Below, piece by piece: positions 4,058 through 15,379 of a stretch of 64,000 nt of DNA. Position 1 is the stretch's first letter; every line of letters begins with the position of its first letter. The DNA lies in NCBI GenBank assembly GCA_943842245.1, contig CALTAJ010000002.1, positions 645,596 through 709,595 of the forward strand, read 5' to 3'. The DNA is from an uncultured Flavobacteriaceae bacterium. Its GTDB lineage: Bacteria; Bacteroidota; Bacteroidia; Flavobacteriales; Flavobacteriaceae. The position numbers were made by a program, and so were the translations under genes. Under the pieces are notes generated by a model. It was not told where the DNA came from and made no database searches. It was given only the letters and a program-made list of their open reading frames with translations.

Positions 4058-4067
4058 CATAAGGGTG

Positions 4068-4075
4068 CAAATATA
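4068..4075 (-). promoter_or_regulatory. Predicted -7 promoter element of rpsU
   Basis: The minus strand reads TATATTTG, an exact match to the Bacteroidota -7 consensus TAnnTTTG. Transcription would start about 20-25 bases before the rpsU ATG and include the Shine-Dalgarno. No clear -33 TTTG is visible. Confidence 0.5.
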
Positions 4076-7872: not shown

Positions 7873-8292
7873 ATGTCCGAAAATTCAAAAAACTTAGTAA
7901 TTGCACTTATTAAGTATAATTGCAAAGTAAACGAGTCTGTATCTAAAGCATTGAAACCTTTTGGTGTTTCATTCCAACAATTTAATGTCTTGAGAATATT
8001 AAGAGGACAAAATGGAGTTGCTGCTAATCTATCAACTGTTCATGAAAGAATGGTTAATAGAACGAGTAATACTACTAGGATTATAGATAAGTTATCTGAT
8101 AAAAATTTAGTAAAAAGAAATATTTGCAAAGAGAATAGGAGAAAAATAGAATTATTTATCACCAATGAAGGTCTTAAACTACTTTCTGTGATAGATACTA
8201 TTGTTGAAAAAACAGAAGATAAAGCAACCCAAAAACTTAACGAAAAAGAAAAGGAAAAACTTATTGCCTTGCTTAATCAAATAAATGACTAA
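7873..8292 (+). CDS. MarR family transcriptional regulator
   Basis: A 139-residue winged-helix protein. Helices at the N-terminus form the dimer region; the recognition helix area reads ERMVNRTSNTTRIIDKLSDKNLVKR (shortened here to its key part, residues about 56-80), followed by the basic wing ENRRKIELFIT. MarR proteins are dimeric repressors released by small ligands or oxidants. It is two bases upstream of a YceI-like gene on the same strand, and MarR-YceI pairs recur in flavobacteria, suggesting it controls its neighbour. The ligand is unknown. Confidence 0.88.
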   Translation: MSENSKNLVIALIKYNCKVNESVSKALKPFGVSFQQFNVLRILRGQNGVAANLSTVHERMVNRTSNTTRIIDKLSDKNLVKRNICKENRRKIELFITNEGLKLLSVIDTIVEKTEDKATQKLNEKEKEKLIALLNQIND

Positions 8293-8294
8293 AA

Positions 8295-8858
8295 ATGAAA
8301 AACATAAACATCTTATTTATTTTAATTATGTCCTTCACAACAATTCTTCAAGGGCAAGAAAAAATAATTAATTTAAATTTAAGTGAAATAAAATGGGTTG
8401 GTAAAGAAATTACCACAAAGACTCATTATGGATCACTTAAATTTAAAAAAGGAAATATCTCAATAGTTAATGATTTGATAACTGCTGGAGAATTTATTGT
8501 AGATATGAATAGTCTTAAAAATGAAGACTTGAGTGGTGGATCTAAAGAATATCTTGAAAAACACTTACGTTCAGATGATTTTTTTGGGGTAGAACAACAT
8601 CCTACTTCTACTTTAAAAATAACATCCGTTAAAAAAGTTGAAGGGGAAAAACATTTAGTTGTGGGAGACCTCAAAATAAAAGGAATCAATAATCAAGTAA
8701 TTTTTGATATCGTTCTCAACTCAAAAGGTGCAACAGCTGAACTCACTTTTGATAGATCTAAATACGGTGTAAAATTCAGATCCTCCAGTTTTTTTGATGA
8801 GTTAGGCGATAAGTTAATTTATGATGACATTGAACTTAAAGTAGACTTAGTTTTTTAA
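8295..8858 (+). CDS. YceI-like periplasmic lipid-binding family protein
   Basis: A 187-residue protein with a signal peptide (about residues 1-20, MKNINILFILIMSF then a Q-G-Q cleavage region). The mature part is a beta-rich YceI/lipocalin-like barrel: IKWVGKEI near the start, GEFIVDMNSL, HLRSDDFFGVEQHPTSTLK in the middle and FDRSKYGVKFRSSSFF near the end, all family hallmarks. YceI proteins bind isoprenoid or amphiphilic molecules in the periplasm. Here it is coupled to a MarR regulator, so it probably responds to a membrane-active or hydrophobic compound; that is inference. Confidence 0.88.
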   Translation: MKNINILFILIMSFTTILQGQEKIINLNLSEIKWVGKEITTKTHYGSLKFKKGNISIVNDLITAGEFIVDMNSLKNEDLSGGSKEYLEKHLRSDDFFGVEQHPTSTLKITSVKKVEGEKHLVVGDLKIKGINNQVIFDIVLNSKGATAELTFDRSKYGVKFRSSSFFDELGDKLIYDDIELKVDLVF

Positions 8859-8946
8859 TATGCTTTGTTAAAATCTGATCTTCTTTAATTTCAATTACTA
8901 TAATAAATATGTTTCAAAACTAATAATGGAGTTATAAATTTTATAT

Positions 8947-8954
8947 TATATTTG
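8947..8954 (+). promoter_or_regulatory. Predicted -7 promoter element of the trp operon
   Basis: TATATTTG matches TAnnTTTG exactly. It ends six bases before the leader-peptide ATG at 8960, so transcription would begin at or next to the A of that ATG. A -33 TTTG at the usual distance is not visible, which limits confidence. Confidence 0.4.
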
Positions 8955-8959
8955 AAGCA

Positions 8960-9010
8960 ATGATTTTAATAAAATTAAATAACACTTGGTGGTGCTCGAT
9001 TCAAAAATGA
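8960..9010 (+). CDS. trpL: trp operon leader peptide (16 aa, tandem Trp codons)
   Basis: ATG at 8960 opens a 16-codon frame, MILIKLNNTWWCSIQK, stopped by TGA at 9008-9010. Two consecutive Trp codons (TGG TGG, 8987-8992) sit in a 16-codon peptide immediately upstream of an intrinsic terminator and of trpE. Tryptophan is the rarest residue, so a TrpTrp pair here is strong evidence for ribosome-mediated attenuation: a ribosome stalled for lack of charged tRNA-Trp would alter folding of the leader RNA. No family match is needed or claimed; the call rests on position and composition. A promoter-like element ends six bases before the ATG, so the message may be leaderless. Confidence 0.8.
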   Translation: MILIKLNNTWWCSIQK

Positions 9011-9041
9011 TTCGCGTGAAACAACTGTATAAAATATAACT

Positions 9042-9069
9042 AGGCTTGTCATCACGACAAGCCTTTTTT
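9042..9069 (+). terminator. trp attenuator terminator
   Basis: AGGCTTGTC (9042-9050) pairs perfectly with GACAAGCCT (9056-9064) around a five-base loop, followed by a run of T to 9069. It lies between trpL and trpE, 14 bases before the trpE ATG, so it can only serve as a conditional terminator for the operon, or as the end of a transcript entering from yceI. Confidence 0.88.
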
Positions 9070-9083
9070 AATTTATATCAAAA

Positions 9084-10484
9084 ATGAAAACATTTGCCCT
9101 TAAAACAGAGCACAAAAAAATACTTGCTGACACTATTACCCCGGTCAGTGTATATTTAAAATTAAGGGATGTGTTTCCACATTCTTTACTTCTAGAAAGC
9201 AGTGATTACCATGCAAATAATAATGACTTTTCATACATCTGTTGTAACCCAATAGCTTCTATTGAACTTAAAAACAATATACTAACTACCCATTTTCCTG
9301 ATAAGAGTTTAGAAGTAGAAAAAGTCAATAGCATGCTTGATATACCTGAGCGAATACATAAATTTTCACAGCAGTTTGAGAGTGAACGTTTCCCCTTTAA
9401 ATTTATTAGTAATGGAATATTTGGTTATGTAGCTCACGATGCTGTTGATCGTTTCGAAAATATTGAGCTAAATAAAACTAAACCAGGGCAAGATATTCCC
9501 GATATATATTATGCTGTTTATCAAAATATTATCGCGATTAGTCTTTTTAATCACGAAGCTCACTTATTTTCACACATTTATGGCGGTGATCATAATCTTA
9601 CTGAGATAGAGGTTTTACTCCAAGCCAAAAACAACAGCCATTTTAACTTTGAAAAAGTAGGAGAAAAATCGTCTAATCTTAGTGATGAACAATTTATTAA
9701 TTTTGTAAAAAAAGGGAAAGAACATTGTTTCAGAGGGGATGTATTTCAGCTTGTACTTTCCAGGTGCTTTTCGCAAGGTTTTAAAGGTGACGAATTTAAT
9801 GTTTATCGAACCCTAAGGTCTATCAACCCTTCCCCTTATTTATTTTTCTTTGACTATGGTTATTTTAAAATTTTTGGGAGTTCACCAGAAGCTCAACTAA
9901 TTGTTCAAAGTGGTAAGGCGGAAATTCACCCTATTGCAGGAACCTTTCGCCGAACAGGTGATGATGAGAAAGATGCTGTAGCTGCTGGACTATTAGCAAA
10001 AGATCCTAAAGAAAATAGCGAGCATGTTATGCTTGTGGATTTAGCTAGAAACGACTTAAGTCGAAATGGATCACAAGTTGTTGTGGAAAAAAATCGAGAA
10101 ATTCAATTCTATTCTCATGTTATTCACTTAGTCTCAAAGGTAAGTTGCACTATGAAAAAAGCTACTAAAACATTCCGCGTTGTGGCAGACACTTTCCCAG
10201 CAGGTACTCTAAGTGGTGCTCCAAAGCACAGGGCATTACAATTGATTGATCAATATGAAACCACAAAACGAAATGTTTATGGAGGTGCAATTGGTTACAT
10301 GGATTTTCATGGGAATTTTAATCATGCAATAATTATTCGTTCATTCTTAAGTAAAAATCATGAATTACATTATCAGGCAGGAGCTGGAATTGTTGCTGAT
10401 TCAGTTCCAGAGAATGAATTACAAGAAGTCTATAATAAATTAGGAGCTCTAGATAAAGCCTTAACATTAGCAGAGGACGTTTGA
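9084..10484 (+). CDS. trpE: Anthranilate synthase component I
   Basis: A 466-residue chorismate-utilising enzyme, the usual length. The N-terminal domain has LLESSDYHA, the region that binds feedback tryptophan (LLES), and the C-terminal domain carries the chorismate-binding signatures FRGDVFQLVLS, IHPIAGTFRRTG, MLVDLARNDL and FPAGTLSGAPK. It converts chorismate and ammonia (from TrpG) to anthranilate, the first step of tryptophan synthesis. It is the first structural gene of trpEGDCFBA, preceded by a leader peptide and attenuator, so expression should respond to charged tRNA-Trp. Enzyme level is probably also tuned by Trp feedback. Confidence 0.95.
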   Translation: MKTFALKTEHKKILADTITPVSVYLKLRDVFPHSLLLESSDYHANNNDFSYICCNPIASIELKNNILTTHFPDKSLEVEKVNSMLDIPERIHKFSQQFESERFPFKFISNGIFGYVAHDAVDRFENIELNKTKPGQDIPDIYYAVYQNIIAISLFNHEAHLFSHIYGGDHNLTEIEVLLQAKNNSHFNFEKVGEKSSNLSDEQFINFVKKGKEHCFRGDVFQLVLSRCFSQGFKGDEFNVYRTLRSINPSPYLFFFDYGYFKIFGSSPEAQLIVQSGKAEIHPIAGTFRRTGDDEKDAVAAGLLAKDPKENSEHVMLVDLARNDLSRNGSQVVVEKNREIQFYSHVIHLVSKVSCTMKKATKTFRVVADTFPAGTLSGAPKHRALQLIDQYETTKRNVYGGAIGYMDFHGNFNHAIIIRSFLSKNHELHYQAGAGIVADSVPENELQEVYNKLGALDKALTLAEDV

Positions 10485-10486
10485 CT

Positions 10487-11050
10487 ATGAAAAAAGTATT
10501 TGTCATCGATAATTATGATTCTTTTACATATAACCTAGTTCATTATCTAGAAGAAATGAACTGTGAGGCAACCGTAAAACGAAATGATAAATTCGAACTT
10601 GGCGAGTTAGAAAATTATCCGCTATTACTCCTCTCCCCTGGACCTGGTATTCCTGATGAATCTGGTTTATTAAAAGCAGCAATTAAACGTTATGCTCCTA
10701 CTAAGAAAATTTTAGGTATCTGTTTAGGTCAACAAGCCATTGGAGAAGTTTTTGGTGGTAGACTAATTAATCTAGATAAAGTTTATCATGGTGTTGCAAC
10801 TCCAGTAAAGGTTATTAAAGAAGATGTATTATTTACAGATCTCCCTGATACCTTCGATATTGCCCGCTATCATTCTTGGGTAGTTGAAACACCATTACCT
10901 AAAGAGCTTATTGCCACCTCAATAGATCAAAAAGGACGGTTAATGTCTTTACGTCATAAAAAATTTGATGTTCGTGGGGTTCAATTTCATCCTGAGTCAA
11001 TTCTCACACCTCATGGGAAAAAAATATTAAGTAATTGGATTAATAGTTGA
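10487..11050 (+). CDS. trpG: Anthranilate synthase component II (glutamine amidotransferase)
   Basis: A 187-residue class I glutamine amidotransferase starting MKKVFVIDNYDSFTYNL. The catalytic triad is visible: Cys79 (GICLGQQ), His168 and Glu170 (FHPES); the oxyanion segment SPGPG is at 50-54. It hydrolyses glutamine and passes ammonia to TrpE. I chose the ATG at 10487, two bases after the trpE stop. A TTG two codons earlier (10481) would overlap that stop as TTGA and cannot be excluded. The gene could also supply aminodeoxychorismate synthase, as in other bacteria with a single trpG/pabA. Confidence 0.93.
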   Translation: MKKVFVIDNYDSFTYNLVHYLEEMNCEATVKRNDKFELGELENYPLLLLSPGPGIPDESGLLKAAIKRYAPTKKILGICLGQQAIGEVFGGRLINLDKVYHGVATPVKVIKEDVLFTDLPDTFDIARYHSWVVETPLPKELIATSIDQKGRLMSLRHKKFDVRGVQFHPESILTPHGKKILSNWINS

Positions 11051-11052
11051 GC

Positions 11053-12048
11053 ATGAAAGCCATATTAAATAGACTTATAAATCATCAAAAACTGAGCAAG
11101 GAAGAATCTCGACAAATGATTATAAATATAGCTGATGGGCAGTATAATTCTTCCCAAATTGCTTCATTCCTTACCGTTTATATGATGCGAAGTATTAGCC
11201 TAGACGAACTCGAAGGTTTTCGTTCTGCTTTATTAGAATTATGCATTTTAATTGATCTTGATGAATACGATACCATAGACTTATGTGGTACTGGCGGAGA
11301 TGGGAAAGACACCTTCAATATTTCGACTCTTTCCTCTTTTGTAACTGCTGGTGCTGGGGTTAAAGTTACCAAACATGGAAATTATGGTGTTTCTTCAGGA
11401 TGTGGTTCTAGTAATGTATTAGAAGCATTAGGGGTAAAATTTTCTAATAAAAAAAATTTTTTAAAACGGTGTCTTGACGAAGCAGGTATTTGTATTTTAC
11501 ATGCGCCCCTTTTTCATCCAGCAATGAAAAATATCGCACCTGTAAGACGTGAACTTGGAGTTAAAACTTTTTTTAATATGTTGGGCCCACTAGTTAATCC
11601 TGTCTTACCAAAAAATCAGTTAACAGGAGTGTTCAATCTTGAATTAGCAAGACTTTACAATTATCTATTTCAAAAAACAAACATCAACTTTACAATTCTT
11701 TATGGGTTAGATGGATATGATGAGATATCACTTACAGGTCCTACTAAAGTCTTTAGTAAAAATGGTGAAAGTGTATTGACATCTCAAGATTTTGGAGTAA
11801 CAACAATAGCTGCCAAAGAAATATCTGGGGGAGAAGATATAAATTCTTCAGCTAAAATATTTTTGGATGTAATACAAAATAAAGGTACAACTGCACAGCA
11901 GAATGTAGTCTGTGCCAATTCAGGAATAGCTATTGCAACAGCTTTAAGACTGTCACCCATTGAAGGGTTTGAAAAAGCTAAAGAATCAATACTTTCTGGA
12001 AAAGCATTCAATGCTCTAAAAAAACTTCAAAACCTTAGTGAAAAATGA
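11053..12048 (+). CDS. trpD: Anthranilate phosphoribosyltransferase
   Basis: A 331-residue enzyme of normal length with the phosphoribosyl-pyrophosphate signature GTGGDGKDTFN (from residue 79) and the KHGNYGVSS segment that contacts anthranilate. It joins anthranilate to PRPP to give N-phosphoribosylanthranilate. ATG at 11053 lies two bases after the trpG stop; as for trpG, an upstream TTG (11047) would create a TTGA overlap. Its own stop overlaps trpC by four bases (ATGA), so translation of the two is coupled. Confidence 0.94.
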   Translation: MKAILNRLINHQKLSKEESRQMIINIADGQYNSSQIASFLTVYMMRSISLDELEGFRSALLELCILIDLDEYDTIDLCGTGGDGKDTFNISTLSSFVTAGAGVKVTKHGNYGVSSGCGSSNVLEALGVKFSNKKNFLKRCLDEAGICILHAPLFHPAMKNIAPVRRELGVKTFFNMLGPLVNPVLPKNQLTGVFNLELARLYNYLFQKTNINFTILYGLDGYDEISLTGPTKVFSKNGESVLTSQDFGVTTIAAKEISGGEDINSSAKIFLDVIQNKGTTAQQNVVCANSGIAIATALRLSPIEGFEKAKESILSGKAFNALKKLQNLSEK

Positions 12049-12830
12049 GCATATTAGATCTAATCGTAGCTGATAAACGTATAGAGATTACCCAAAGGAA
12101 GAAGTTATTTCCAAGTAGTTATTGGGAGTCCTCTCCGCTTTTTGAACGACAGTCTAATTCATTGGTAAAAAGTCTCAGTGATAGTAATTCAGGCATAATT
12201 GCTGAACACAAACGTCGTTCTCCATCTAAACAAAACATAAATAGCTCACTTTCTGTAACAGATGTTGCTGGCGGATATGAGAAAGCAGGCGCATGTGGAA
12301 TGTCAGTCTTAACTGATGGTAAATATTTTGGGGGATCTTTAAATGATTTAAACCTTGCTCGTTCTGTTACTAGTTTTCCAGTCTTGCGTAAAGAATTTAT
12401 TATTGACGAATACCAAATAATCGAAGCCAAGGCCCATGGAGCTGATGCTATTTTATTAATTGCAGGAATCTTAAATCGATCTGAAATCTTTCAATTGTCA
12501 AATGCAGCAAAAGGATTTGGATTAGAAGTTTTATTAGAAGTACATAACCTAAAAGAATTAAAAAAATCTGTCATGCCCTCCCTAGACATAATAGGAGTGA
12601 ATAATCGAAATCTTAAAACCTTTGAAGTTTCCTTAAATACAAGTAGGGTCTTAATTGAAGAGATTCCTGATGATTTTGTCAAAATATCTGAAAGTGGTAT
12701 AAGTGAGGTTACTGCCATAAAAGATTTAAGAAGTCAAGGATATCAGGGCTTTCTAGTTGGAGAAAATTTTATGAAAACTGATAATCCAGGAGAAGCAGCC
12801 CATAAATTCATAAAACAAATAGAGTCATGA
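12045..12830 (+). CDS. trpC: Indole-3-glycerol phosphate synthase
   Basis: A 261-residue TIM-barrel enzyme. Characteristic segments are AEHKRRSPSK (53-62, with the catalytic Glu and Lys), LRKEFIIDEYQI, LEVH, GVNNRNLKTFEV and SESGI. It closes the ring of CdRP to give indoleglycerol phosphate. It is a separate gene here, not the TrpC-TrpF fusion of enterobacteria. Four-base overlaps link it with trpD upstream and trpF downstream. Confidence 0.95.
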   Translation: MSILDLIVADKRIEITQRKKLFPSSYWESSPLFERQSNSLVKSLSDSNSGIIAEHKRRSPSKQNINSSLSVTDVAGGYEKAGACGMSVLTDGKYFGGSLNDLNLARSVTSFPVLRKEFIIDEYQIIEAKAHGADAILLIAGILNRSEIFQLSNAAKGFGLEVLLEVHNLKELKKSVMPSLDIIGVNNRNLKTFEVSLNTSRVLIEEIPDDFVKISESGISEVTAIKDLRSQGYQGFLVGENFMKTDNPGEAAHKFIKQIES

Positions 12831-13444
12831 AGTTAAAAGTTTGTGGTATGAGAGAAAATGAAAATATTTTAGCTCTGAGCGATTTACGGCCAGACTATAT
12901 AGGCTTTATTTTTTGGGCCTCCTCAAGTCGCTACGTAAATAGTCCAACGCCTAAACTTGATAAAAAAATCAAGAAAACTGGAGTATTTGTAGATGCTAAT
13001 GTCGAATATGTTCAGGATATAATTATTACACATCAATTACAAGCTGTGCAATTGCATGGAAAAGAAACACCAAGTTATTGTGAGCTCATTAAAGAATTTG
13101 GTGTAGAAGTGATAAAATCTTTTTCTATAAAAGATTATTTTGATTTTTCACTTCTTGTCCCTTATCAAGAAAATTGCGATTTCTTTTTGTTTGATACCAA
13201 AGGTCCATCTCCTGGTGGCAATGGTTATACTTTTAATTGGAGTGTTTTAAAAGATTACTATTCACAGAAACCATTTTTTTTGAGTGGTGGAATAGGACTA
13301 GAAAACATACAACAGGTTAAAGAATTATTAAATTCAACTCTACCCCTTTACGGTATTGATGTAAATAGCAAATTTGAATCTGCACCTGGACTAAAAAAAA
13401 TAGAGTCTTTAACAAAATTTAAAAATGAATTATATGAATTATAA
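12827..13444 (+). CDS. trpF: Phosphoribosylanthranilate isomerase
   Basis: A 205-residue TIM barrel with the family catalytic pair: Cys6 (KVCGMRE) as general base and Asp123 (LFDTKGPSPGG) as general acid; QLHG and GIDVNSKFE are also typical. It performs the Amadori rearrangement of phosphoribosylanthranilate to CdRP. It overlaps trpC by four bases and trpB by 11 or 20 bases depending on the trpB start. Confidence 0.94.
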   Translation: MKLKVCGMRENENILALSDLRPDYIGFIFWASSSRYVNSPTPKLDKKIKKTGVFVDANVEYVQDIIITHQLQAVQLHGKETPSYCELIKEFGVEVIKSFSIKDYFDFSLLVPYQENCDFFLFDTKGPSPGGNGYTFNWSVLKDYYSQKPFFLSGGIGLENIQQVKELLNSTLPLYGIDVNSKFESAPGLKKIESLTKFKNELYEL

Positions 13445-14615
13445 TGTAGATGAAAAAGGATATTACGGTGATTTTGGTGGCGCCTTTATACCTGAAATGT
13501 TATATCCCAATGTGGCAGAACTTCGGGAAAAATATTTAAAAATTTCATCAGAACCTGACTTTAAAAAAGAATTTGATAATTTATTAAAGGTCTATGTTGG
13601 GCGTCCAACTCCTTTATATTTTGCTAAACGTTTGTCTAAACGTTACAATACAAAAATATATTTAAAGCGTGAAGATCTTTGTCATACTGGTGCCCATAAA
13701 GTCAATAACACCATTGGTCAAATTTTGTTAGCTAAACGTCTAGGTAAAAATCGTGTAATTGCAGAAACTGGTGCAGGACAACATGGAGTTGCCACCGCTA
13801 CAGTTTGTGCTCTTATGGGAATAGAATGTATTGTTTACATGGGCGAGTTAGATATTAAACGTCAGGCACCAAATGTAGCACGAATGAAAATGTTAGGAGC
13901 AGAAGTTCGCTCTGCAAAATCAGGTAGTAAAACTCTCAAAGATGCTACCAATGAAGCCATTCGCGATTGGATAAATAATCCAGTAGATACACATTATATT
14001 ATAGGATCTGTAGTTGGACCTCACCCCTATCCCGATATGGTGGCTCGTTTTCAATCAGTTATTAGTGAAGAAACTAAATGGCAATTGAAAGAACAAGAAG
14101 GACGTGAATATCCCGATCATATTATAGCTTGTGTAGGTGGAGGAAGTAATGCTGCTGGACTATATTTTCACTATCTCAATGATGAACGTGTAAATATTAT
14201 TTCAGTTGAGGCTGCAGGAAAGGGAATTCATTCTGGAAAGAGTGCTGCAACTTCAGCACTAGGTAAAGAAGGAATTATTCATGGAAGTAAAACTCTATTA
14301 ATGCAAAGTCATGACGGACAAATAACCGAACCATATTCTATCTCAGCTGGCTTAGATTACCCAGGTATTGGACCAATGCATGCGCATCTGTACCGCTCTA
14401 AACGTGCAGAGTTTATATCTATTCCAGATCAAGAGGCAATGGGTTGGGGGCTTACCCTTTCGCAAATGGAAGGTATAATTCCAGCTATTGAAACCGCGCA
14501 TGCTTTTGCGGTACTTGATGTGCGAAAGTTTAGTCCCGAAGAAGTAATTGTTTTTAACTGTTCAGGCCGAGGTGATAAGGACTTGGATACCTATATTGAT
14601 TATTTTAAATTATGA
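13434..14615 (+). CDS. trpB: Tryptophan synthase beta chain
   Basis: About 393 residues, fold type II PLP enzyme. The PLP lysine is in HTGAHKVNNT (Lys89 from this start), with GAGQHG, the phosphate-binding GGGSNAAG loop and the C-terminal NCSGRGDKD. It condenses indole and serine to tryptophan in the alpha2-beta2 complex with TrpA. Two ATGs are possible: 13425 (adds MNY) and 13434; the latter gives the usual N-terminus NVDEKGYYGDFGG. Both lie inside trpF. The stop overlaps trpA by four bases, ensuring matched expression of the two subunits. Confidence 0.95.
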   Translation: MNYNVDEKGYYGDFGGAFIPEMLYPNVAELREKYLKISSEPDFKKEFDNLLKVYVGRPTPLYFAKRLSKRYNTKIYLKREDLCHTGAHKVNNTIGQILLAKRLGKNRVIAETGAGQHGVATATVCALMGIECIVYMGELDIKRQAPNVARMKMLGAEVRSAKSGSKTLKDATNEAIRDWINNPVDTHYIIGSVVGPHPYPDMVARFQSVISEETKWQLKEQEGREYPDHIIACVGGGSNAAGLYFHYLNDERVNIISVEAAGKGIHSGKSAATSALGKEGIIHGSKTLLMQSHDGQITEPYSISAGLDYPGIGPMHAHLYRSKRAEFISIPDQEAMGWGLTLSQMEGIIPAIETAHAFAVLDVRKFSPEEVIVFNCSGRGDKDLDTYIDYFKL

Positions 14616-15379
14616 TTAATAGAATAGATAAAAAATTTCAAGAAGACAAAAAACTCTTGTCTATCTATTTTTCTGCTGGACATCCTAGCTTAGAAGACAC
14701 AGTACCTATTTTAAAGAAATTGCAAGCTGCCAAAGTAGATATGGTAGAAATTGGCCTCCCTTTTTCTGATCCTTTAGCTGATGGACCTACTATTCAGGAA
14801 AGCTCAACTCAGGCCCTAAGTAACGGGATGACCACAGATAAGTTATTCTCTCAATTAGAAAATATAAGGAAATACATAAATATTCCATTGGTCTTGATGG
14901 GTTATTTTAATCCTATGATGCAATTTGGGATTGAAAAATTCTGTAAGTGTTGTGAATCAATTGGTATTGATGGTTTAATTATTCCCGATTTACCTGTCGA
15001 TATTTATCACGAGAAATACAAGATTTTATTTGATAAACATGGGTTATATAATATGTTTTTAATCACCCCACAAACTCCAGAGAAACGTATTCGATATATT
15101 GACAAAGTTTCAAATGGTTTTATCTATATGGTAAGTAGTGCAAGTGTAACTGGTGCAAAAAACACCTTTGGTGACAGTCAAAAAGACTATTTCAAGCGCA
15201 TATCAGGGATGAGATTGAGTTCTCCAACAGTTGTCGGTTTTGGCATTAGTAATGCAAGTACATATTCTACGGCGATAGAACATTCAAATGGAGCAATAAT
15301 TGGCTCAGCATTTATAAAGTTTTTAGAAGATAAAGGAGTAAATAAAATTGCTGACTTTATCAGTTCTATAAGGGATTGA
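14612..15379 (+). CDS. trpA: Tryptophan synthase alpha chain
   Basis: A 255-residue TIM-barrel subunit with catalytic Glu46 (VEIGLPF) and Asp57 (LADGPT), plus GYFNPMM and IIPDLP. It cleaves indoleglycerol phosphate to indole, which is tunnelled to TrpB. It is the last gene of the trp operon; the gap of about 57 bases to the next gene has no clear terminator, so read-through into the downstream glycan cluster is possible. Confidence 0.95.
   Translation: MINRIDKKFQEDKKLLSIYFSAGHPSLEDTVPILKKLQAAKVDMVEIGLPFSDPLADGPTIQESSTQALSNGMTTDKLFSQLENIRKYINIPLVLMGYFNPMMQFGIEKFCKCCESIGIDGLIIPDLPVDIYHEKYKILFDKHGLYNMFLITPQTPEKRIRYIDKVSNGFIYMVSSASVTGAKNTFGDSQKDYFKRISGMRLSSPTVVGFGISNASTYSTAIEHSNGAIIGSAFIKFLEDKGVNKIADFISSIRD

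Follow-up and report, generated by a model that had tools for sequence, protein, structure and literature searches.

A putative tryptophan attenuator with a predicted leaderless start and a terminator-loop antiterminator upstream of trpEGDCFBA in a Flavobacteriaceae genome

Attenuation requires that a ribosome load onto the nascent leader early enough to race RNA polymerase, and the usual account of this step involves leaders served by a Shine-Dalgarno site. To our knowledge, flavobacteria do not rely on Shine-Dalgarno sites, and leaders that lack them raise the question of how the race between ribosome and polymerase is timed in these bacteria. We examined the trp locus of an uncultured Flavobacteriaceae bacterium, contained in a 64,000-nucleotide stretch of DNA (the window; positions are counted from its first letter, on the + strand unless noted). 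The segment ahead of trpE is quite probably a ribosome-mediated transcription attenuator of trpEGDCFBA, with a leaderless start and a switch between two strands, designated R2 and R3, as proposed below.

Anatomy and conservation of the trp leader

The trp operon of the window comprises trpE, G, D, C, F, B and A (9084-15379), as assigned from open reading frames (ORFs) and Pfam. Its leader opens with the -7 promoter box TATATTTG (8947-8954), in agreement with the TAnnTTTG consensus of the Bacteroidota housekeeping sigma factor. A 16-codon frame follows (8960-9010), with its ATG at 8960 and its stop codon at 9008-9010, encoding the leader peptide MILIKLNNTWWCSIQK; both this frame and its tandem Trp codons (TGG TGG, 8987-8992), the presumed sensing site, are recognizable in the sequence and in relatives. 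The intrinsic terminator (9042-9069) consists of a nine-pair stem, AGGCTTGTC/GACAAGCCT (9042-9050/9056-9064), enclosing the loop ATCAC (AUCAC in the RNA; 9051-9055), and a U tract (T at 9065-9069). It is separated by 14 bases (9070-9083) from the trpE ATG at 9084. The original prediction, made from the letters of this stretch, had described the tandem-Trp frame and the nine-pair terminator with its U-tract 14 bases before trpE, and both are present as claimed. Just upstream of the locus, on the same strand, lie genes for a MarR-family regulator and a YceI-like protein (7873-8858, Pfam).

The leader folds better than all 200 of its dinucleotide shuffles (z -2.78). A scan of positions 8300-9700 returned four terminator-like sites, compared with a shuffle mean of 0.4, and two of the four are the trp stem read on either strand. 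In a whole-genome pattern count the exact terminator pattern occupied a single place, and the possibility that it is a repeated genomic element was rejected on that ground.

Using the TrpE of the window as query against public genomes, we retained the best 80 of 576 confirmed loci, a selection that biases the set of trpE loci toward near relatives. Three loci at contig ends (L036, L057 and L060) have no upstream DNA and were left out, giving 77 loci with at least 139 nt upstream. Within this set from the best 80 of 576, a leader peptide with WW or WWW precedes trpE in 77 of 77 loci, and a rule-based scan detected the terminator in 77 of 78 trpE loci, the window included. The scan's one miss, L063, has an imperfect stem visible in the sequence. 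The original prediction had proposed aligning the region upstream of trpE in related flavobacteria; the TGG pairs are kept throughout these 77 loci, and the comparison strongly supports its reading of ribosome-mediated attenuation.

Under curated Rfam cut-offs, the window yields four tRNAs only. At a relaxed threshold, the Bacteroid-trp model (RF01692) aligns to the leader over all 131 model positions with 42.5 bits, against a gathering score of 49 (E 0.00061 in 301 nt); related loci score from 88.5 down to 40 bits. The window RNA is homologous by position to Bacteroid-trp and, by curated score, is not a formal member of the family. The definition of Bacteroid-trp, which we take to be an ORF with at least two Trp codons upstream of trp genes in Bacteroidota, describes the window as well. 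Across the phylum, the model matched 35 of 296 genomes at E <= 0.01, including that of the window, and each of the other 34 matching loci has a WW or WWW leader and a terminator (34/34). Pooling these with the loci of the TrpE search (best 80 of 576) gave 111 leaders, with 107 distinct R2/terminator pairs; L063, which has no terminator by rule, was left out of the pairing and UTR counts.

Promoter spacing and the predicted transcription start

According to the available sections of two published studies, the TAnnTTTG box spans -12 to -5 in F. psychrophilum (PMC9723704), and in F. johnsoniae promoters judged probable the gap between box and start measures 4 or 5 nt (PMC6847099). Given these distances and the five bases between box and ATG in the window, the start is expected at 8959 or 8960, that is, one base before or at the leader ATG. 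The GGAG closest to the leader, at 8928-8931, comes ahead of the -7 box, and a transcript beginning at the predicted position 8959 would have no room for a Shine-Dalgarno site. From box spacing across relatives together with the published distances, we strongly predict that the window leader is leaderless, with a 5' UTR of 0-1 nt.

The same attenuator might instead carry a conventional leader: transcription would start further upstream or read through from the MarR-YceI genes, an A-rich 5' UTR would load the ribosome, and the short box spacing would be incidental. We consider this reading unlikely, and the spacing data bear on it from both sides. For 107 of the 111 leaders a strict box is present within range of the start codon (L044, L114, L115 and L116, which have none in range, were left out of the UTR count). 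Box and ATG are 4-9 nt apart in 72 of these 107 leaders, with 48 different spacer sequences among them, although such counts are phylogenetically non-independent across leaders; the corresponding predicted 5' UTR is 0-5 nt in these 72 leaders, and of the rest, 34 have 12-18 nt and a single one has 8 nt. Among control ORFs, by contrast, boxes 2-8 nt ahead of the first ATG are uncommon, at 1 of 57 in the window and 6 of 380 at trpE loci, and of those control ORFs with a box within 60 nt, 7 of 45 have it at spacing 4-9. This difference argues against an incidental spacing. The 34 leaders with a predicted UTR of 12-18 nt, mostly A-rich, speak for the conventional leader and indicate that a leaderless start is not required.

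The bases around the expected start divide in the same manner. In the spacing-5 class, to which the window belongs, the fifth base after the box, immediately before the ATG, is A in 31 of 36 leaders, which disfavors a conventional leader. At spacing 4, the base before the ATG is A in 10 of 20 leaders, and the fifth base coincides by construction with the first base of the start codon. This contrast between the two classes is as expected if transcription starts at the fifth base after the box. At spacing 6-9, the fifth base is A in only 4 of 16 leaders; a fixed start distance fails there, and the start may lie slightly further on. The mostly missing A in this group is a point in favor of the conventional leader.

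Genomic context and published maps also lend that alternative some weight. The preceding gene runs in the same direction as trp and stops at 8858, 88 bases ahead of the -7 box, and the terminator scan is blank between the MarR-YceI genes and the trp promoter, so that read-through is possible; a further promoter upstream of the strict box may also exist. In mapped Bacteroidota, leaderless mRNAs are rare: in the sections available, they amount to 5.5% in F. psychrophilum (PMC9723704), about 3.7% of 5' UTRs are under 10 nt in the published map of B. thetaiotaomicron, and leaders exceed 10 nt in 87% of predicted F. johnsoniae transcripts (PMC6847099). On balance, the leaderless start suggested in the original prediction has gained comparative support from promoter spacing, with 0-5 nt predicted in 72 of 107 leaders, and the start position itself stays a prediction.

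The start codon of the trp leader is ATG in 106 of 107 leaders; L055 has GTG despite a predicted 5' UTR of 0 nt. In the window's genome, the pattern TATATTTG-N4-8-ATG occurs 18 times, compared with 15 for the reversed control pattern, so this count proves nothing by itself. Several of the 18 sites fall inside long frames and are probably not promoters. Other sites (within L227-L244) stand ahead of frames of 146-501 aa (e.g. L231, L238, L239 and L242), possibly ordinary leaderless mRNAs. Within the window, TATATTTGCACCCTTATG (4058-4075, - strand) opens an eight-codon frame, MKGGATLC, with no terminator nearby.

We placed the two predicted classes on a quick TrpE tree of 105 rows, from which L006 and L113-L117 were left out and in which the placement of two long-branch rows is unsure. 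Of these rows, 71 are leaderless by prediction, 33 have a UTR and one is unlabelled, with eight label changes, at least five of them forced by starred branches. Most UTR rows (28 of 33) fall in a clade with rows named Flavobacterium, beside five leaderless rows.

The antiterminator and the proposed switch

No convincing classical antiterminator had been found in the original prediction, a statement that the pairing analysis does not support. In the window, the candidate 5' strand R2 (9015-9026) comprises CGUGA (9015-9019), the counterpart of a conserved UCGUGA, and ACAACU (9021-9026). Its partner R3 (9043-9056) spans the terminator 5' arm, the loop and the first base of the 3' arm, so that 9015-9019 would pair with 9052-9056 and 9021-9026 with 9043-9049, leaving C9045 unpaired. 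This helix is weak in the window (-8.5 kcal/mol, with 15% of shuffles as good) and ranks among the weakest of the 30 leaders listed.

Two motifs recur among the 111 pooled leaders: UCGUGA, in or close to the stop codon of the leader, and UCACGA, within the loop and 3' arm of the terminator. Both are present in 83 leaders, one of them in 19 and neither in nine. In the usual WWW peptide, UCGUGA is read as the closing sense codon followed by the stop (UCG UGA), and the final Ser of the leader peptide therefore appears to be dictated by the RNA. In the pooled leaders the extended R2 pairing reaches the terminator 5' arm, and at least three terminator-loop bases are paired in 108 of 111. For the 107 distinct leaders, at least three loop bases are paired in 97%, compared with 46% for shuffled R2; the mean R2:R3 energy is -14.0 kcal/mol, compared with -7.3 kcal/mol for shuffled R2; and in 83% at most 5% of R2 shuffles are equally good.

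Divergent leaders keep the pairing with other letters in the same places: AUCGUAAGGCAACCUC pairs with AGGGUUGCCAUAUGGC in L114, and AUGUGGC with GCCACAU in L117. Covarying stems had been proposed as a check at the outset, and in nine divergent lineages of our own choice the R2 and R3 of one lineage pair better with each other than with partners exchanged between lineages (permutation p 0.00017; on omission of any single lineage, 0.0002-0.0014). Taken together, the comparative evidence indicates that the antiterminator exists and is conserved and covarying. A more distant leader, L028, encodes a 24-residue peptide and forms its antiterminator, in which UCAAAGUCUU pairs with AAGACUUUGA, with the terminator 5' arm only and inside the leader frame; its pairing spares the loop, its R2 starts 28 nt ahead of the stop codon, and the leader departs from the stop-codon logic described below.

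The terminator sequence itself, AGGCUUGUCAUCACGACAAGCCU (9042-9064 in the window, and in relatives), is little varied across leaders, even though compensatory changes would allow a terminator stem to drift. Its two pairings may hold the sequence fixed, or the short transcript left by termination (about 110 nt) may also act in trans as a small RNA or a small leaderless mRNA. The latter has a precedent in rnTrpL of Sinorhizobium meliloti, whose terminated RNA acts in trans as described in the available part of the report (PMC7298713). A strand with two partners to match would likewise be expected to vary little, and we regard a trans role in the window as distinctly improbable.

A different and unusual switch logic had been put forward in the original prediction, in which pairing of the Trp-codon segment with the 3' half of the terminator, rather than R2:R3, decides termination. 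This pairing is formable in the window (-9.0 kcal/mol), yet among the nine divergent lineages partners from the same lineage have no advantage over exchanged ones (p 0.45). It was rejected as the switch and has, in our judgment, very little chance of being correct. A chance TGG-rich frame before the ordinary terminator of the MarR-YceI genes, whose last gene ends 88 bases before the -7 box with no other terminator in between by scan, was rejected as next to impossible, given a leader peptide in 77 of 77 and a terminator in 77 of 78 trpE loci (best 80 of 576) with differing peptide and spacer sequences.

The position of R2 points to how an R2:R3 switch would be read by the ribosome. Counted from the first base of the last Trp codon, R2 starts 14-26 nt downstream in all 111 leaders (20 nt in 54). 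Relative to the stop codon, its start falls between -10 and +14 nt in every leader but one (110 of 111), which has it at -28. A ribosome stalled on Trp would thus leave R2 free, and one at the stop codon would tend to cover it. We folded the window RNA ending at 9056 under ribosome masks with an assumed footprint of 15 nt. The antiterminator probability was approximately 0.9-0.96 with the ribosome on the Trp codons and 0-0.01 with the ribosome at the stop codon; without a ribosome, and with the 3' arm not yet out, the antiterminator still forms (0.86-0.90). In silico, therefore, the antiterminator of the window is mutually exclusive in the expected sense, hidden at the stop codon and free on stalling.

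The same masks were applied to 18 of the 111 leaders, again of our choice. With a stalled ribosome, the antiterminator reached at least 0.70 in 17 of 18, the exception being L028, and with the ribosome at the stop codon it was at most 0.09 in 15 of 18. In L032, L035 and L038, R2 is not hidden by a stop-codon ribosome with a 15-nt footprint, and the antiterminator probability was 0.64-1.0. Equilibrium folding of the full-length RNA revealed no switch, as the terminator was preferred in all 18 leaders. With the 3' arm present the terminator wins at equilibrium, which means that the switch has to operate kinetically, during transcription.

In the mechanism that we propose, RNA polymerase would begin on the A of the leader AUG or on the base preceding it, and a ribosome would load on the almost bare 5' end. 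When charged tRNA-Trp is scarce, the ribosome would stall on the two Trp codons, covering the RNA to about 9002 on the assumed footprint, and R2 (9015-9026) would remain free to capture the emerging terminator 5' arm and loop (9043-9056). The terminator would then be unable to form, and trpEGDCFBA would be transcribed. When Trp is plentiful, the ribosome would arrive at the stop codon (9008-9010) and cover most of R2, allowing the terminator (9042-9069) to end transcription. The switch as such appears well supported by comparison among leaders; the response to Trp and the kinetic win of antitermination are steps that we infer.

His leaders and comparison with known systems

Exactly two of the 18 TATATTTG-N4-8-ATG sites in the window's genome, trp and his, have a short peptide and a terminator. 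At the hisG locus (L135), box and leader ATG lie at G000:C2:144096-144113 on the - strand; the peptide is MKLIKHHTHQILIPSNER and the antiterminator strands are CUCAAACG and CGUUUGAG. This leader shares its promoter spacing class and its antiterminator plan with the trp leader. In the same genus, the box stands 5-8 nt before the ATG of the his leader in 18 of 18 genomes. This count omits L140, an additional hisG fragment in G297 that has no leader, and includes rows identical in peptide (L129/L131 and L130/L134). In all 18 genomes the terminator 5' arm pairs with an R2 whose start lies 12-21 nt ahead of the stop codon; in two of them (L122 and L128) the pairing is matched by 8% or 17.5% of shuffles. 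Across the family, a his leader was found in 27 of the 30 loci read (of 75 found), and the antiterminator recurs. A strict box is present in 13 of these 27 leaders, four of them with the box 7-8 nt from the ATG, and the other 14 have no strict box. Short box spacing is thus not the rule for his across the family, and few his leaders are leaderless outside the genus. A relaxed Rfam search of the his leader gave no match above a family cut-off.

Upstream of thrA (L187 and eight relatives) and ilvD (22 loci and L196), no attenuator was found by a scan that required a strict box followed at 3-23 nt by an ATG, together with a terminator, and that would miss other builds; the window's genome thus yielded none at either gene under these criteria. 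The one exception is L157, an ILV-rich candidate with 23-nt spacing in a different family.

We lean toward the view that selection maintains leaderless starts in flavobacterial amino-acid attenuators (in much of the family for trp, in the window's genus for his), which would let the ribosome load onto the 5' end the moment it appears and keep pace with the polymerase, and that the switch consists in capture of the terminator loop by the stop-codon strand. As a natural set, the homologous trp leaders fall into two classes, with predicted UTRs of 0-5 or 12-18 nt and at least five forced changes on the tree, which makes the question of the race directly testable. The locus would serve an ordinary purpose, trp attenuation, with two informative twists, namely the R2:R3 antiterminator and the predicted leaderless start.

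The attenuator class is already known. Bacteroid-trp RNA is listed in Weinberg et al, 2010 (PMC2864571) and noted upstream of the F. psychrophilum trp operon (PMC6414381), and Lopatovskaya et al, 2010, cited in PMC4833913, may already list such attenuators, as far as the available text of these sources goes. Like the window leader, RF01692 describes an RNA before trpE in Bacteroidota with Trp codons, a paired region over them and the terminator 5' arm. Unlike it, the model ends inside that arm, leaving out the terminator loop and the antiterminator, and the window scores below its curated 49 bits; the R2:R3 antiterminator thus extends a model that stops short of it. For F. psychrophilum, a member of the same family Flavobacteriaceae, the same mechanism of leader-peptide attenuation has been proposed for amino-acid operons from structured 5' regions, in an account whose available passages give neither an antiterminator nor a trp start site (PMC9723704). 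In the literature searched, which included few subscription papers and was in part available as excerpts, we found no account of the R2:R3 antiterminator, of its use of the terminator loop or of a leaderless class of trp leader in Bacteroidota.

Outside the phylum, the closest resemblance in the predicted start is to trpL/rnTrpL of S. meliloti, a Trp attenuator whose transcript begins at the leader-peptide ATG according to the available part of its description (PMC7298713). This system belongs to the Alphaproteobacteria and uses another promoter type, and it is set beside the window by description.

The E. coli trp attenuator shares with the window a leader peptide with tandem Trp codons, a mutually exclusive antiterminator and terminator, and the trp operon downstream. 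In the enteric system a Shine-Dalgarno site precedes the leader peptide, the 5' UTR is longer, and antiterminator pairing extends as far as the terminator 5' arm and leaves out the loop. In nearly all of the leaders described here (108/111), at least three loop bases are predicted to be engaged.
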